In this document: positions 41,229-49,635 of the stretch, piece after piece
Position numbering within the stretch: position 1 is the stretch's first letter
Layout: each line of letters starts with the position of its first letter
Origin: Halorubrum sp. 2020YC2
GTDB lineage: Archaea > Halobacteriota > Halobacteria > Halobacteriales > Haloferacaceae
Assembly: GCF_018623055.1 (NCBI RefSeq)
Contig: NZ_CP076019.1
Location: forward strand, 2,480,001 to 2,544,000
Length of the DNA: 64,000 bases
Direction of reading: 5' to 3'
The notes under the pieces: generated by a model
What the model was told of the DNA's origin: nothing
The model's input: only the letters and a program-made list of their open reading frames with translations
Databases searched by the model: none
Program-made: the position numbers and the translations under genes

Positions 41229-42382
41229 ATGCGCATCGACCCGTTCGGCCTCGAACGCTGGTTCGCGGAGCACGAGCACGAGGCCGACATCATGCTGGCC
41301 GAAAGCGGGATCCGGTCGCTCGACGCGGGCCGGTTCGACCTCGACCCGGGGAAGCTCGGCTACGTCATCCGACCGACGGCGACCCCGAGTTCCGGGCGTC
41401 CGTCGGTGACCGCTACGACCGGTCCGCCGACGAGGTGCTCTTCACCTGCGGCACGCAGGAGGCGAACTTCCTGACGTTCCTCTCGCTACTTGGCGACGAG
41501 GGGCCCGTCGGCGGAAACGGTGAGACGGCCGGCGTCGGCTCCGGCACCCACGCGGTCGTCGTCACCCCCACCTACCAGGCGCTCCACGCCGTGCCGGACG
41601 CGTTCGGGGACGTGACCCGCGTCGAACTGGAGCCGCCCGAGTGGGAACTGGACCCCGACGCCGTCGCGGACGCCGCCCGCGACGACACCGCCGTCATCGT
41701 CGTCAACAACCCGAACAACCCCACCGGGCAGTACCACGACGAGGCGGCGATGCGGGCGGTGTACGACGTCGCCGTCGACCGCGACGCCTACCTGCTCTGC
41801 GACGAGGTGTACCGCCTGCTGGCCGCGGAGCCGCAGCCGCCGGTCGCGAGCTACGGGGCGCACGGCATCTCGACGACGAGCCTCACGAAGGCGTACGGGC
41901 TGGCCGGCCTCCGGTTCGGCTGGATCGCTGGGCCGGAGCCGGTCGTCGAGCGCGCGTGGCGCTGGAAGGACTACACCACCATCTCCCCGAGCCTGTTCGG
42001 CCAGCACGTCGCGAAGCAGGCGCTCGGCCGGCGCGAGGACCGGATCCTGTCGGAGAACCGCGAACTGGCGGCCGCCCACCGCGACCGCGTCGCGGACTGG
42101 GTCGACGCACACGACCTCGACTGGCTCGACCCCGTCGGCGTCAACGCGTTCGTGACGGTCCCCGACGGCTTCGCGGACGCGGAGGAGTTCTGCCGGACGG
42201 TCGTCGAGGAGGCGAGCGTCGTCCTCGCGCCCGGCGGTCTGTTCGGCTTCCCGGGCCGCTTCCGGATCGGATTCGGTCTCCCGACCGAGGAACTGGAAGA
42301 CGGTCTCGACCGGGTGAGCCGCGTGATCGAGGAGCACGCCGCGGCGTCCGACTCGGCCGCGACGACCGGAGGTGACGCCTGA
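41229..42382 (+). pseudogene. Class I/II pyridoxal-phosphate aminotransferase (one frameshift)
   Basis: A fold-type I PLP enzyme of about 384 residues. The N-terminal part MRIDPFGLERWFAEHEHEAD to LGYVI is in one frame. The rest is in another: DEVLFTCGTQEANFLTFLSL, VVTPTYQALHAVPDAFGDV, VVNNPNNPTGQYHDEAAMRA, LLCDEVYRL, the PLP-lysine motif ISTTSLTKAYGLAGLRFGWI and FGFPGRFRIGFGLPTEELED. The break at about 41369 is repaired by one C (VI then PTDGDPEFRASVGDRYD). The substrate is not predictable. All catalytic parts are present, so a sequencing error is likely. Its stop overlaps the next start (TGATG). Confidence 0.87.
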
Positions 42383-43279: not shown

Positions 43280-44216
43280 TCAGAGAGCTACGTCACCGCT
43301 GTGTTCGCCGCGCACTTCGGTCGCCCCGTCGAACCGGATCGGGCCGACGACGTCTTTGTATTGACCGCTGTACGACGCCGGTAGCGGCTCGCCCTCCGCG
43401 GAGCGGGGCTGTTCGAGTTCGACCTCCCAGCCGTCGGCGGAGACGTTAAGCAGGTATCCACTCCCCGCTTCGAGCGTCGTGGTCCCTGCTCCGTCGAACG
43501 ATCCACTAGCGAAGACGACGACGGCGTTCGTCTGTCCGCCGAGGACGCTAGCGCTGAAGTCACCCTGACCGGAGTGGGTCGCCCGCGCGATCGTCAGCCC
43601 GCTTCGAGGGGGACCGCTTCGCGAGTAGCGTCCCCGCGCCCGGCAAACGACTGCGTCTCGGGCGCGACGAGAACGACGCTGTAGTTCCACTCCGTCTCAC
43701 CGATTCGGAACTGAACGGTCCCCGATCGGCTGAGCGGGACGGCCGTCGATTCCCACGTCGCCGTCTCACCGCCCGGTACCTCGACTCGTACCTCCTCGAT
43801 TTCCGTCCACTGTTCGGAACCCTCGAAGCGAGCCTCTAACGTCCCCGTGAAGGCACCGTCCTCTCCACCCGTTCTCCACCCTGACCGTACTGGTGTGCTC
43901 TTCACCGATCCTGACTGGTGTGCTCTTCACCGATCCTGACTTCGTCAGGATGATCGACCGAGGCGATCTCGTAGGACGCCGGTCCGGTCGGTTCCTCGTT
44001 ATCGTCGTCCCCCGTGGTCTCCTCACCGCCGGAACCCGACTCGGAGGTCGCGTCCGTGGAGTTGTCACTTCCTTGATCATCGTCCGGATCGGCGCCGCTA
44101 CCGCCACTCCCACAGCCCGCAAGTGACGCTGTCAGTCCGACGCCGGCAGCGCTCAGTAGTCGGCGTCGGCGGAGTATCCGGCTTTCACTACCTGAATCGG
44201 ATCGCTCTGAATCCAC
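43280..44216 (-). pseudogene. Secreted lipoprotein with beta domains, frameshifted
   Basis: About 310 residues over several frames. The N-terminus has a twin-arginine signal and lipobox (RRRRLLSAAGVGLTASLAGC), so export by Tat and lipid attachment are expected. It is followed by an acidic Ser/Gly/Asp spacer and a CARDB-like sandwich (TVRVENG, GAFTGTLEARFEGSEQWTEI, TATWESTAVPLSRSGTVQFR). A second beta domain follows (DFSASVLGGQTNAVVVFASG, GYLLNVSADGWEVELEQPRS). Frame breaks are an exact 25-bp tandem duplication at 43891-43940, one extra G near 43880 and a change near 43607. The C-terminus may also be cut short. The function is unknown. Confidence 0.7.
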
Positions 44217-44791: not shown

Positions 44792-45127
44792 TCAGGCGTC
44801 GGTCGGCGCGCCGGTCTCTAATTCGAACGTCCACTCCTGGTAGCCGCCGGCCATGCTCGCGACGACCACGTCGTCCTCGACGCCCTCGTAGCTGCTGATC
44901 AGCATCGCGGCCTGCTTCGAGGACTCCCCGACGGGACAGGCGCAGACGACGTCGGTGTCGTCCCAGTCGATGTCGGGGACGCGCGAGGGGAGGTCGCCCA
45001 GCGGGACGTTGATCGAGCCGGGGATGTGGCCCTGCTCGTACTGTTCGGGCGGCCGGGTGTCGACGACCCGGACGTCACCGTTCTGGACGCGCTCGTTGAC
45101 TTCCTCGGGGGTGAGTTCCTCGACCAT
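44792..45127 (-). CDS. Rhodanese-domain protein
   Basis: A 111-residue single-domain rhodanese (sulfurtransferase). The fold reads ELTPEEVNERVQNGDVRVVD, PPEQYEQGHIPGSINVPLGD, then the active loop VVCACPVGESSKQAAMLISS with the persulfide-forming Cys, and ASMAGGYQEWTFE. It follows the TusA-like gene by 2 nt in one operon, suggesting a sulfur relay that feeds the E1/ThiS-like system nearby. An oligo-T stretch (CCTTTTTGAG) past the stop may terminate the transcript. Confidence 0.9.
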   Translation of the reverse strand: MVEELTPEEVNERVQNGDVRVVDTRPPEQYEQGHIPGSINVPLGDLPSRVPDIDWDDTDVVCACPVGESSKQAAMLISSYEGVEDDVVVASMAGGYQEWTFELETGAPTDA

Positions 45128-45129
45128 GG

Positions 45130-45381
45130 TTACTCCTTCCGCAGGGAGGTGCGGTAGCCGTCGCCCGACTCCCACACCTTCGCGGTCGCGTCGTCGCCGA
45201 CCGCCTTCGGGACGTTCTCGCTGCTGGGGATGTGGTCCGTCTTCCGGACCAGCACGTCGCCGGGCGCGAGCCCCGCGATGGCCTTCTTCGCCTCGACCTG
45301 CGGGTACGGACAGACCTCGGCGGTCCCGTCGTCGAGTTCGTCGGGCGCCTCGACGACGTCGTCCCACGAGAGTTCACTCAT
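45130..45381 (-). CDS. TusA-like sulfur carrier protein
   Basis: An 83-residue TusA/SirA-family protein. TAEVCPYPQVEAKKAIAGLA contains the CPxP motif whose cysteine carries sulfur as a persulfide. GDVLVRKTDHIPSSENVPKA and VWESGDGYRTSLRKE complete the small alpha/beta fold. It is the first gene of an operon with the rhodanese. The start MSELSWDDVVEAPDEL gives a normal length. Confidence 0.88.
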   Translation of the reverse strand: MSELSWDDVVEAPDELDDGTAEVCPYPQVEAKKAIAGLAPGDVLVRKTDHIPSSENVPKAVGDDATAKVWESGDGYRTSLRKE

Positions 45382-45531: not shown

Positions 45532-46550
45532 ATGGCCGGACACGCCGTCGACGAGTCGACCATCTTCGAGACGCCGCTGCTCGAACTCGACCTCGACTTA
45601 GAGAGCGACGCCGCGGTGTACGCGAAGGCGGAGTGGTTCAACCTCTACGAGGCGCCCCACGGCGGCGGCTCGATCAAGTCGCGGATCGCGAAGGGGATGC
45701 TCGACGGCGCGGAGGAACGGGGCGACCTCGAACCCGGCGTGACCGTGATCGAACCCACCTCGGGCAACACGGGCAGCGAGGTCGCGCGGCTGGCGAGCGC
45801 ACGCGGTTACGACGTCGAAATCGTCATGCCCGACAACGCCGCGGGCGGGAAGGTCGAGGCCGTCCGCGACGCCGGCGCCGAGATCCACTTCGTCGACGCC
45901 GACCTCGGCTACGACGCCGTCATCGAGCGCTGCGAGGAGATCGTCGCCGCGGACCCCGACGCCTACTACCGCCCGAACCAGTACGAGAACCCGGACAACC
46001 CCGGGACCCACGAGCGGACGACGGCACGCGAGATCCACGAGGCCACCGACGGCGAGGTGACCCACTTCCTCGCCGGCGCCGGGACGGGCGGGACGGTCAC
46101 CGGGACCGGCGGGGGCTGACCGACCTGAGCGACGGGGCCGTCGAGGTCGTCGGCTTCGAGCCGGAAGCGCCGCTCCACGCCATCGACGGCCTGAAACACC
46201 TCCGCACGGGCGACCACTACCACCCGGAGACGTACGACGAGTCGGTGCTCGACCGGAAGCTGTACGTCTCGACCGACGACGCCTACGACCGCGCCCGCGC
46301 CCTGCGTGAGCGGTACGCCAATGACCCAATCCCGATCGCCGATGCCGGCCAGCACGACGCGGAGACGGTCCGCGGCCACCTGCGCGTCGACGGACAGTTC
46401 GTCGTGGGGACCTCGGCGGGCGCGGGCGCGGCCGCCGTCGCCGCCCTCGACGAGGCGGGCGACCTCGGGGACGACGACGCCGTCGTGTTCATGCTGTGCG
46501 ACCGCGGCGACAAGTACGCGGACATCCCGCTATGGGAGGAGTACCTCTAA
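45532..46550 (+). pseudogene. Cysteine synthase / OAS-TL family PLP enzyme (one frameshift)
   Basis: A fold-type II PLP enzyme of about 340 residues. MAGHAVDESTIFETPLLELD, the PLP-lysine region HGGGSIKSRIAKGMLD, VIEPTSGNTGSEVARLASAR, IVMPDNAAGGKVEAVRDAGA and FLAGAGTGGTVTGTG are in frame 1. Then EVVGFEPEAPLHAIDGLKHL and VGTSAGAGAAAVAALDEAGD follow in another frame. Adding one C near 46113 (GTGRGLTDLSD) repairs it. The family makes cysteine from O-acetyl- or O-phosphoserine and sulfide or a protein thiocarboxylate. Its neighbours (ThiS-like protein, E1, JAMM protease) point to the thiocarboxylate route. Confidence 0.9.
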
Positions 46551-46586: not shown

Positions 46587-46850
46587 CTACCGACCGCCGC
46601 TGGCCGCGGGGATGACCCGCACCTGCGCGTCGTCCGGGACCTCCGCGTCGAGTCCGTCGACCGGGGTGCCGTCCACGTAGACGTTGATGAACTCCTTGAT
46701 CTCGCCGTCCTCGATCACGCTGTCGCGAAGCTCGTCGCCGTGTTCCGCGGCGTGGTTGTCGAGCAGTTCCGCCACCGTCTCGCCGGCGACCTCGACCGTC
46801 GAGGTCGCCGACCCGCCGACCAGCGCGGCCGGAAGCTTGATCGTCGCCAT
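46587..46850 (-). CDS. ThiS/MoaD-like small sulfur-carrier (SAMP/CysO-type)
   Basis: An 87-residue beta-grasp protein: MATIKLPAALVGGSATSTVE, VAELLDNHAAEHGDELRD, IKEFINVYVDGTPVDGLDAE and VPDDAQVRVIPAASGGR. The strand FINVYVDG and the IPAASGG ending match MoaD/ThiS/CysO carriers, whose C-terminal diglycine is adenylated by an E1 and thiocarboxylated, or conjugated to lysines as a SAMP. This one ends Gly-Gly-Arg, so one residue would have to be removed before activation. It lies between the cysteine synthase gene and the divergent E1 gene. Confidence 0.88.
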   Translation of the reverse strand: MATIKLPAALVGGSATSTVEVAGETVAELLDNHAAEHGDELRDSVIEDGEIKEFINVYVDGTPVDGLDAEVPDDAQVRVIPAASGGR

Positions 46851-47122: not shown

Positions 47123-47980
47123 ATGAGCGATCTCGACCTCGATCCGACGCAGCTCGACCGCTACTCCAGACACATCATCCTCGACGACGTCGGGCCGGAG
47201 GGGCAGAAGGACCTGCTGGACGCCGAGGTGCTGGTCCTCGGCGCCGGCGGGCTCGGCGCGCCGATCATCCAGTACCTCGCCGCGGCGGGCGTCGGCACGC
47301 TCGGCGTCGCTGACGACGACGAGGTCGAGCTGTCGAACCTCCAGCGGCAGGTCATCCACGGCGACGACGACGTGGGCCGGAAGAAGGTCGACTCGGCCGC
47401 GGAGTTCGTCGCGGACCTCAACCCCGACGTGGACGTCGAGCGCCACGAGCTCCGCGTCACCCCGGACAACATCGAGGAGCTCATCGACGGCTACGACTTC
47501 GTCGTCGACGGCACGGACAACTTCGAGACGCGCTACCTCGTCAACGACGCCTGCACACTCGCCGGGATCCCCTTCTCGCACGGCTCTATCTTCCGGTTCG
47601 AGGGGCAGGTGACGACGTTCGCGGGCGACGACGACTCGCCGTGTTACCGCTGTCTGTTCCCGGAGGCGCCGCCGGCCGGCATGGTCCCGAACTGCGCGAC
47701 CGCCGGCGTGCTGGGCGTCCTCCCCGGAACCGTCGGCTGCCTTCAGGCGACCGAGACGGTCAAACACCTCATGGGCAAAGGCGAGTCGCTCGACGGTTCG
47801 ATGCTGTTCTTCGACGCGCTCGACATGGAGTTCGACAAAGTCGAGATCCCCAAACAGGACGACTGCCCCGTCTGCGGCGACGACCCCGCCATCGAGTCGG
47901 TCCACGACGTCGAGTACACTGCCTCCTGCGCCATCGACGCCGGCGGCGACGCGGAACCGGAGATCGAAGCGACCGACTGA
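47123..47980 (+). CDS. ubaA: E1-like adenylyltransferase (UbaA/MoeB/HesA type)
   Basis: A 285-residue ubiquitin-activating-type enzyme. The nucleotide fold has VLVLGAGGLGAPIIQYLAAA and LGVADDDEVELSNLQRQVIH, then KKVDSAAEFVADLNPDVDVE and VVDGTDNFETRYLVNDACTL. Zinc ligands are in CYRCLFPE and CPVCGD, and the likely catalytic Cys is in VPNCATAGVLGVLPGTVG. In haloarchaea UbaA adenylates SAMPs for both protein tagging and sulfur transfer (tRNA thiolation, molybdopterin). It is divergent from the ThiS-like gene, its likely substrate. The acidic C-terminal extension (SCAIDAGGDAEPEIEATD) is slightly long. Confidence 0.93.
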   Translation: MSDLDLDPTQLDRYSRHIILDDVGPEGQKDLLDAEVLVLGAGGLGAPIIQYLAAAGVGTLGVADDDEVELSNLQRQVIHGDDDVGRKKVDSAAEFVADLNPDVDVERHELRVTPDNIEELIDGYDFVVDGTDNFETRYLVNDACTLAGIPFSHGSIFRFEGQVTTFAGDDDSPCYRCLFPEAPPAGMVPNCATAGVLGVLPGTVGCLQATETVKHLMGKGESLDGSMLFFDALDMEFDKVEIPKQDDCPVCGDDPAIESVHDVEYTASCAIDAGGDAEPEIEATD

Positions 47981-48618: not shown

Positions 48619-49047
48619 CTATCGTTCGCTCCGCACCGACACCGTCTCCTGCTCGAACTCGTCCGCGTCGTCGCGCCAGCGCCACGAGCCGACGAACGGG
48701 TAGCCGTCGAGCGCGCAGATCACGTACGAGCGGTCCGGCCACGTCGCCCGGGCCGCGTCCGTCTCGCTCGGGTTCGTCGGGCCGGTCGGGTGCGAGTGGT
48801 AGAAGCCGACGACGTCGAGGCCCGCGTCTTCGACGCTCTCGATCAGCTCGAGCTGCTCTTCGGGGTCGATCAGGTAGCGGATCTCCGGCGTCTCCGCGAC
48901 GTTCTCCGCCGCGTACGTCTCCGTGACGACGCTCGGGTCGCCGTCGGTGCCGTGCTCGCCGGCGAGCACGCCGCAGATCTCCGTCTCGCCGCCCTCGTAC
49001 GCCCGGTACACGACCTCGTCGTACGCCGCCCGCGTGAGTTCGATCAT
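48619..49047 (-). CDS. JAMM/MPN-domain metalloprotease
   Basis: A 142-residue stand-alone JAB1/MPN domain. The zinc site is complete: Glu in GGETEICGVLAGEHG, then FYHSHPTGPTNPSETD fitting HxHx7Sx2D. Haloarchaeal JAMM enzymes such as HvJAMM1 cut SAMPs from target proteins, and bacterial Mec+ of this family releases cysteine from CysO-cysteine. With the ThiS-like protein, E1 and cysteine synthase in the same 5 kb, either role is plausible. It is convergent with the E1 gene across element copy 6. Confidence 0.9.
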   Translation of the reverse strand: MIELTRAAYDEVVYRAYEGGETEICGVLAGEHGTDGDPSVVTETYAAENVAETPEIRYLIDPEEQLELIESVEDAGLDVVGFYHSHPTGPTNPSETDAARATWPDRSYVICALDGYPFVGSWRWRDDADEFEQETVSVRSER

Positions 49048-49278: not shown

Positions 49279-49635
49279 CTAGAACGTGATGATCTCGTAG
49301 TCGTCGTCGACGAGCGAGCGGACGCTGGGGTGGCCGTCGTACTCGTCGAGCGTGGCGAGTCCCGAGTCCGCGACGGCGTCCTCGACGCCGAACGCGCCGG
49401 AACAGTAGTCACAGACCGCGGCGTCGTCTCGGACGGCCTGGTAGAGCTCGTGGTAGTCGCTCTCCTCGTCTTCCAGCTCCGGGATCCACTGCGTCCCGGC
49501 GCCGTCGAAGATGAGCTCCAGCTCGTCGTCGTCGTTCTCCGCGAACTCCTTGGCGGCCTCCAGCGCGTTTGCGAGGCGACCGTAGTCGGCGTGCGACTCG
49601 TTGCCGGCGAGAATCACGATTGCTGCCTTCGCCAT
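49279..49635 (-). CDS. DsrE-family protein
   Basis: A 118-residue DsrE/F-like protein: MAKAAIVILAGNESHADYGR, EAAKEFAENDDDELELIFDG and ELYQAVRDDAAVCDYCSGAF, the region where sulfur-relay members carry a reactive Cys. GVEDAVADSG follows, and it ends YDGHPSVRSLVDDDYEIITF. The fold is used by sulfur carriers such as TusD, but many stand-alone members have no known role. The CDYC pair favours thiol chemistry. Its location next to the sulfur-carrier genes fits. Confidence 0.87.
   Translation of the reverse strand: MAKAAIVILAGNESHADYGRLANALEAAKEFAENDDDELELIFDGAGTQWIPELEDEESDYHELYQAVRDDAAVCDYCSGAFGVEDAVADSGLATLDEYDGHPSVRSLVDDDYEIITF

Follow-up and report, generated by a model that had tools for sequence, protein, structure and literature searches.

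QbsE and HcyS are among the sulfur carriers that are capped and have a JAMM protease. As described in the accessible portions of the papers cited here, capped bacterial carriers typically need a protease such as QbsD (PMC6006322), and the JAMM trimming of capped carriers is already known both in bacteria and in Caldiarchaeum, where CsJAMM cleaves the organism's own SAMP precursors (PMC6043591). Haloferax volcanii is the model organism of archaeal sampylation. Its HvJAMM1 cleaves a linear SAMP1-MoaE fusion in vitro precisely behind the last glycine of SAMP1 (PMC4443979). The same fusion supports DMSO respiration in cells only with the jamm1 gene, and forms without Gly-Gly are not cut in cells (PMC4443979). 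By contrast, an account of earlier work has HvJAMM1 cutting linear fusions without need of the diglycine (PMC8832034). The SAMP1-MoaE fusion was the authors' own construct, and H. volcanii SAMP1 itself ends in a bare VSGG (PMC4443979).

Linkage of a carrier to a cysteine synthase and a JAMM protease is known from the CysO/CysM/Mec+ system of Mycobacterium tuberculosis, in which Mec+ hydrolyses the CysO-cysteine adduct (PMC3227635). Furthermore, the portion of Iyer et al. 2006 (PMC1779556) that was accessible lists bacterial operons that combine a cysteine synthase gene with genes for ThiS/MoaD, E1-like and JAB proteins (row 4c) and a set with SirA and other sulfur genes (row 4e) that includes one crenarchaeon.

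The window analyzed here, a stretch of 64,000 nucleotides from Halorubrum sp. 2020YC2 that is part of a single contig in a genome of 3.06 Mb, holds the same linkage of genes (Table 1). The E1-JAMM-carrier-cysteine synthase cluster would be the archaeal counterpart of the sulfur-carrier route by which bacteria make cysteine. It unites the four functions of the row 4c operons with a rhodanese, but the bacterial E1 is fused to the rhodanese and no archaeon is listed in that row (PMC1779556). The mycobacterial MoeZR likewise joins E1 and rhodanese (PMC3227635), which are encoded by separate genes in the haloarchaeal cluster. Residues after Gly-Gly and a clustered JAMM gene are shared with PtmS2/PtmS1 and QbsD; yet PtmS2 is bacterial and serves a natural product (PMC6006322), whereas the window carrier is archaeal and accompanied by a UbaA-type E1. 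Caldiarchaeum also combines an archaeal ubiquitin-like (Ubl) precursor with a SAMP-type JAMM, but it is a distant archaeal lineage and no such cluster is described in the accessible portion of PMC6043591.

Table 1. Capped carrier gene and neighboring genes of the cluster, in window positions.
Feature	Position	Strand	Basis
CysO/SAMP1-like beta-grasp sulfur carrier, 87 aa, predicted precursor ending PAASGG-R	46587..46850	-	Translation, Pfam ThiS, orthologue alignment, AlphaFold model, Foldseek
Gly85-Gly86 codons, invariant	46593..46598	-	Sequence and orthologue alignment
Arg87 cap, CGG codon	46590..46592	-	Sequence; Arg in 25 and Gln in 2 of the 27 genus loci read, window included
Carrier stop TAG	46587-46589	-	Sequence
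E1-like activating enzyme, UbaA family, cluster's own copy	47123..47980	+	NF047750, 478.5 bits (cut-off 450)
JAMM/MPN+ metalloprotease, haloarchaeal desampylase (HvJAMM1) family	48619..49047	-	NF041370, 151.8 bits (cut-off 130)
Cysteine synthase of the CysK/CysM family; reading frame interrupted near 46115 in this assembly	45532..46550	+	PALP and cysKM matches of two parts
TusA-like sulfurtransferase	45130..45381	-	PF01206, 37.5 bits (cut-off 28.6)
Rhodanese-domain protein	44792..45127	-	PF00581, 70 bits (cut-off 22.2)
DsrE-like protein	49279..49635	-	PF02635, 21.2 bits (below cut-off 22.7)

The last codons of the carrier gene (minus strand, 46587-46601) read AGC GGC GGT CGG TAG, or Ser-Gly-Gly-Arg-stop, just as the initial annotation had reported when it proposed that the extra Arg blocks the diglycine needed for E1 activation. 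The JAMM gene that it placed 1.8 kb away lies 1.77 kb from the carrier gene. Its description of the carrier as ThiS-like holds to the extent that the protein matches the Pfam ThiS profile (PF02597, 33.4 bits against a cut-off of 22.5 in a Pfam profile search), but the protein is nearer to CysO and SAMP1 than to ThiS itself. We also considered that the carrier is SAMP1. This was ruled out by its score with the NCBIfam SAMP1 profile NF041918 (47.7 bits, below the equivalog cut-off of 60). The genome also has a separate SAMP1-like gene.

The AlphaFold model of the carrier, built from 26 aligned sequences that included no CysO record, had a mean pLDDT of 83.7, with only residues 85-87 under 50. 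Its best Foldseek matches by E-value among solved structures (ranks 1-3) were CysO in the BexX complex (TM 0.83), the CysO-CysM complex (0.82) and CysO (0.78), followed by SAMP1 (0.66) and, at rank 6, a Thermus MoaD-related protein (0.74). The best phmmer match was 4n6e_B, listed as a BexX/CysO complex. The carrier is nearest to CysO in both fold and sequence. Its end differs: CysO chains in the PDB stop at the residue aligned with Gly86, from which we took CysO to have a bare Gly-Gly end, whereas the window carrier has the cap beyond and ends in GGR.

The capped ending recurs at every genus locus read, as the orthologue comparison proposed in the initial annotation revealed. Genus g1 of the genome sample is taken here to be Halorubrum, whose species are the nearest named relatives found; H. 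sodomense, H. lipolyticum and H. saccharovorum are among those with the cluster. A search of 52 Halorubrum genomes with the cluster E1 returned matches of 90 to 100% identity at 28 places, distributed over 27 genomes; cluster-type E1 is thus present in about half of the genomes. All of the 27 loci read, the window among them, hold the carrier with one residue after Gly-Gly (GGR in 25, GGQ in 2). The adjoining cysteine synthase gene has a broken frame and the assembly may therefore hold indels, but a base-calling error at the carrier stop codon is so improbable that we rejected it: 26 further loci of the genus have one residue after Gly-Gly (Arg in 24), and named haloarchaeal species also carry residues after the carrier Gly-Gly.

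Apart from the window itself, a sample of 392 genomes of the order contained 27 clear orthologue places, spread over 26 other genomes, with residues after Gly-Gly at 25 places and bare ends at two (L059 and L060). A one-genome-per-species scan yielded 39 loci, four from Chloroflexi and 35 from haloarchaea, the latter partly overlapping the 392-genome sample; of the haloarchaeal loci, 31 were tailed, three bare (L268, L271 and L278) and one uncounted (L269). Endings outside Halorubrum were RR, AR, SR, TRA, CSP, QSK, TGQ, Q, G, R or none, and an alignment of 23 carriers has an invariant PAASGG (23/23), after which conservation ends. The cap is not required, since these five bare orthologues exist although a JAMM gene is near each of them. 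Within Halorubrum it is rather constant, and the Arg or Gln could therefore have a role of its own. The near constancy of the Arg would also fit a cap that stays in place, with the carrier either functional in its GGR form or inactive. This explanation has no direct support and is very improbable in view of the invariant Gly-Gly (23/23) beside the cluster's own E1 and of the bare Gly-Gly orthologues in the same family. A single scan of viral contigs with the carrier as query found no relative.

Gene linkage was conserved among the orthologues. With about 8 kb fetched on each side, a close JAMM gene was present at all 27 orthologue places and a close E1 gene at 22. The accessible portion of a 2010 survey reports that archaeal Jab genes seldom adjoin Ubl genes (PMC2948915); in this cluster, by contrast, the JAMM gene is regularly found near the carrier (27/27 places). 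Cysteine synthase was within the stretch at 19 of the 27 places (at L049 only at its far end) and missing from the stretches of L052-L054 and L057-L061 (8/27; some contigs were short), which makes the delivery of sulfur to this enzyme less certain. L052-L054 keep the carrier, E1 and JAMM genes, and L057-L061 keep JAMM and carrier without a close E1. Similar neighborhoods surround the 35 haloarchaeal loci (flanks of up to 4 kb, shorter on some contigs), with JAMM at 32, E1 at 31, cysteine synthase at 28, rhodanese at 27 and the TusA-like gene at 24. The DsrE-like gene adjoins the JAMM gene in some relatives only, with a close copy at 3 of the 35 loci. In the window, the cysteine synthase frame shifts in a G-rich run near 46115, a region where all 18 relatives read have an uninterrupted frame; the break is either a recent pseudogene or an assembly error.

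The window E1 and JAMM belong to the families of H. volcanii UbaA and HvJAMM1 by the NCBIfam equivalog cut-offs (Table 1). The window JAMM has residues E23, H84, H86, S94 and D97, which we take to be the catalytic set of the JAMM motif. All five recur in each of the 59 JAMM sequences recovered from 62 loci, a number of which represent one gene present in both collections. Elsewhere in the genome lies another E1 (C1:100645) that scores higher with the UbaA profile than the window E1 (NF047750, 517.4 vs 478.5), so we read the latter as the cluster's own copy. The JAMM gene is not tied to the cluster alone: 32 of 32 Halorubrum genomes have it, and 14 of these have the carrier. It is also present in all 27 genomes with a strong carrier orthologue (this one included) vs 286 of 392 overall.

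We also identified residues after Gly-Gly in other Ubl proteins of the same genome. Its SAMP1 (L082, G000:C1:2102382-2102618) ends in VSGGSAGR and its SAMP2 (L084, G000:C1:61084-61299) in KGGATDGGA, and the possibility that the cap is exclusive to the cluster carrier was therefore rejected. Halorubrum SAMP1 was tailed at 20 of 25 loci read, 17 of these ending in GR, and bare at the other five; by pattern, 21 of 32 genomes had tailed SAMP1. SAMP2 was read at the best 30 of 49 Halorubrum loci and was tailed in all 30, with 2 to 25 residues after Gly-Gly.

If these tails need removal by an HvJAMM1-type protease, they should be missing where the protease is missing. JAMM matches were found in 286 of the 392 haloarchaeal genomes, 278 of them at E < 1e-10, and the eight weak matches (E > 1e-10) were treated as absences. 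The end motif of SAMP1 occurred in 320 of 392 genomes and directly followed by a stop in 261, which leaves 59 tailed; these pattern counts treat TGG like a stop and miss diverged motifs (72/392 genomes were without the motif). The outcome was unusually clear. All 59 genomes with tailed SAMP1 had JAMM and none lacked it, whereas bare SAMP1 occurred in 181 genomes with JAMM and 80 without (Fisher p = 5e-9); when the eight weak matches are counted as present, the table becomes 59, 0, 187 and 74. Counts were also made by genus because the genomes are related: SAMP1 tails occurred in 21 genera, all with JAMM, and none of the 18 genera without JAMM in motif-bearing genomes was tailed. Permuting JAMM among genera gave p = 0.0014, and within families p = 0.0055. 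Both states occur within two genera. Genus g61 has one genome with JAMM, which is tailed, and one without, which is bare; genus g85 has one tailed genome with JAMM, four bare genomes without it and one bare genome with it. For 42 of the 59 tailed genomes the ending itself was read, and 40 of these had short tails (at most 12 residues as read). SAMP1 tails thus depend genome-wide on the presence of a JAMM gene, and their absence from 80 of 80 genomes without JAMM speaks against random run-ons that could arise anywhere.

SAMP2 agreed in direction, but its contrast was small and weaker than for SAMP1. Among 80 chosen genomes outside the genus (40 with and 40 without JAMM), the SAMP2 motif was found in 36; SAMP2 was tailed in 7 of 26 genomes with JAMM and bare in all 10 without, and a reversed-pattern control had one match, in G122. 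Five endings of the seven tailed genomes were read (AP, APCPHEDTVE, SQRA, SR and a run-on in G076).

The proposal in the initial annotation that the Arg caps the diglycine and that the adjoining JAMM removes it is supported by four lines of evidence, with the removal step itself inferred. Gly-Gly is invariant while the residues that follow are variable or absent; an HvJAMM1-family JAMM with intact catalytic residues lies near the orthologues (27/27 and 32/35); tailed SAMP1 is confined to genomes with JAMM (59/59, as opposed to 0/80 without); and the reported cut by HvJAMM1 in a linear SAMP1 fusion falls precisely behind the terminal Gly (PMC4443979). From the observed cap, invariant Gly-Gly with its variable end, gene linkage, intact protease motif and genome-wide dependence of SAMP1 tails on JAMM, we consider it likely that the gene product is a CysO-like sulfur carrier whose capped precursor is trimmed by JAMM, activated by E1 and then used to pass sulfur to cysteine synthase. 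The carrier would be translated with its cap, and the HvJAMM1-type protease of the cluster would cut after Gly86 to free the diglycine. Judging from the protein families, the UbaA-type E1 would then adenylate Gly86, and sulfur from the rhodanese and TusA-like proteins would convert it to a thiocarboxylate. The adjoining cysteine synthase would then receive the sulfur. Cysteine may in turn be released from the carrier by the same JAMM, in the way that Mec+ acts on CysO.

Trimming by another protease is an unlikely alternative to removal by the cluster JAMM. The genome does encode a second, different JAMM near C1:2245200 (L068/L080) with an HSHP...S..D motif, and a lone terminal Arg would be a plausible carboxypeptidase substrate. 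Nevertheless, both co-occurrence and gene linkage point to the HvJAMM1-type protein, and varied tails of several residues are ill-suited to a simple carboxypeptidase.

The tails of SAMP1 and SAMP2, compared over hundreds of relatives, suggest that the role of the neighboring JAMM may extend beyond the cluster, and that it would trim both the carrier and the other Ubl proteins of the cell before they work. In Halorubrum, the same protease would mature SAMP1 and SAMP2 wherever they are tailed. We lean slightly toward a broader form of this model, in which most Halorubrum Ubl proteins (SAMP1, SAMP2 and the CysO-like carrier) would be made as precursors. The HvJAMM1-type protease would then be their general maturation enzyme and would license Ubl function, like the ubiquitin-processing DUBs of eukaryotes; haloarchaeal tails would evolve only where the protease is kept. 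If so, a cell that lost JAMM would have all of its tailed Ubl proteins silenced together.

Neutral drift of the tails is a rival explanation, with a chance that we put just short of even. JAMM would be kept for desampylation and cut after Gly-Gly in any case, and short, harmless extensions would come and go with no dedicated precursor logic. Consistent with drift, bare and tailed SAMP1 coexist within one genus (20/25 loci and 21/32 genomes tailed), and tails vary greatly, most in SAMP2 (2 to 25 residues). Furthermore, 181 genomes keep JAMM with bare SAMP1, so that the main job of the protease may be desampylation and the tails merely tolerated. Against drift, the carrier cap is kept at 27 of 27 genus loci read and is nearly always Arg. 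The pattern fits drift under an existing protease roughly as well as it fits a dedicated precursor system. Drift is also compatible with the route proposed for the carrier, for JAMM would still remove the tail.

In the accessible portion of PMC4443979, the maturation-type cut by a haloarchaeal JAMM is demonstrated only on the authors' fusion. Natural Halorubrum precursors would supply real substrates and allow an easy genetic test of the role of JAMM in maturation. The evidence for novelty is weak because the literature search was limited to open-licence papers. Within that literature, we found no treatment of the natural tails of haloarchaeal SAMPs or of their breadth, and the term 'SAMP precursor' appeared only in the Caldiarchaeum paper (PMC6043591). 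The accessible portion of PMC7305310 does not treat natural haloarchaeal SAMP tails, nor did we find a discussion of residue caps in that of PMC1779556.

Several further observations concern related proteins and the assembly. Long extensions follow the SAMP1 Gly-Gly in G133 (47 residues, L299) and G014 (113 residues, L301), and more than 30 residues follow that of SAMP2 in G076 (L197); all three genomes have JAMM. More distant carrier paralogues (L062-L066, in genomes G009, G011, G025 and G037) carry S, C, ST, SR and LL as tails; none has a close JAMM next to it, although all four genomes have JAMM. Chloroflexi account for four distant loci, of which L280 ends in AGGSR and the other three in AGG (L283 matched only in part). 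L280, from a metagenome-assembled genome (MAG), has E1, rhodanese and cysteine synthase matches near its CysO-like carrier (AGG-SR), and no JAMM match at 1e-5 within the 8 kb locus. The second JAMM gene of the Halorubrum genome adjoins what by eye is an apparent cytidylyltransferase gene, a pairing noted for archaeal Jab genes in the accessible portion of PMC2948915. In the window, an aminotransferase gene (41229-42382) and a lipoprotein-like gene (43280-44216) seem, from the open reading frame list by eye, to run across more than one frame, as would be expected if the assembly contains indel errors. We also identified in the same genome a protein (L083, G000:C1:1360075; the same open reading frame in L003) with a MoaD-like domain and VAGG, behind which come a linker and a further stretch of well over 100 residues, and whose Gly-Gly would also need cutting to be free.
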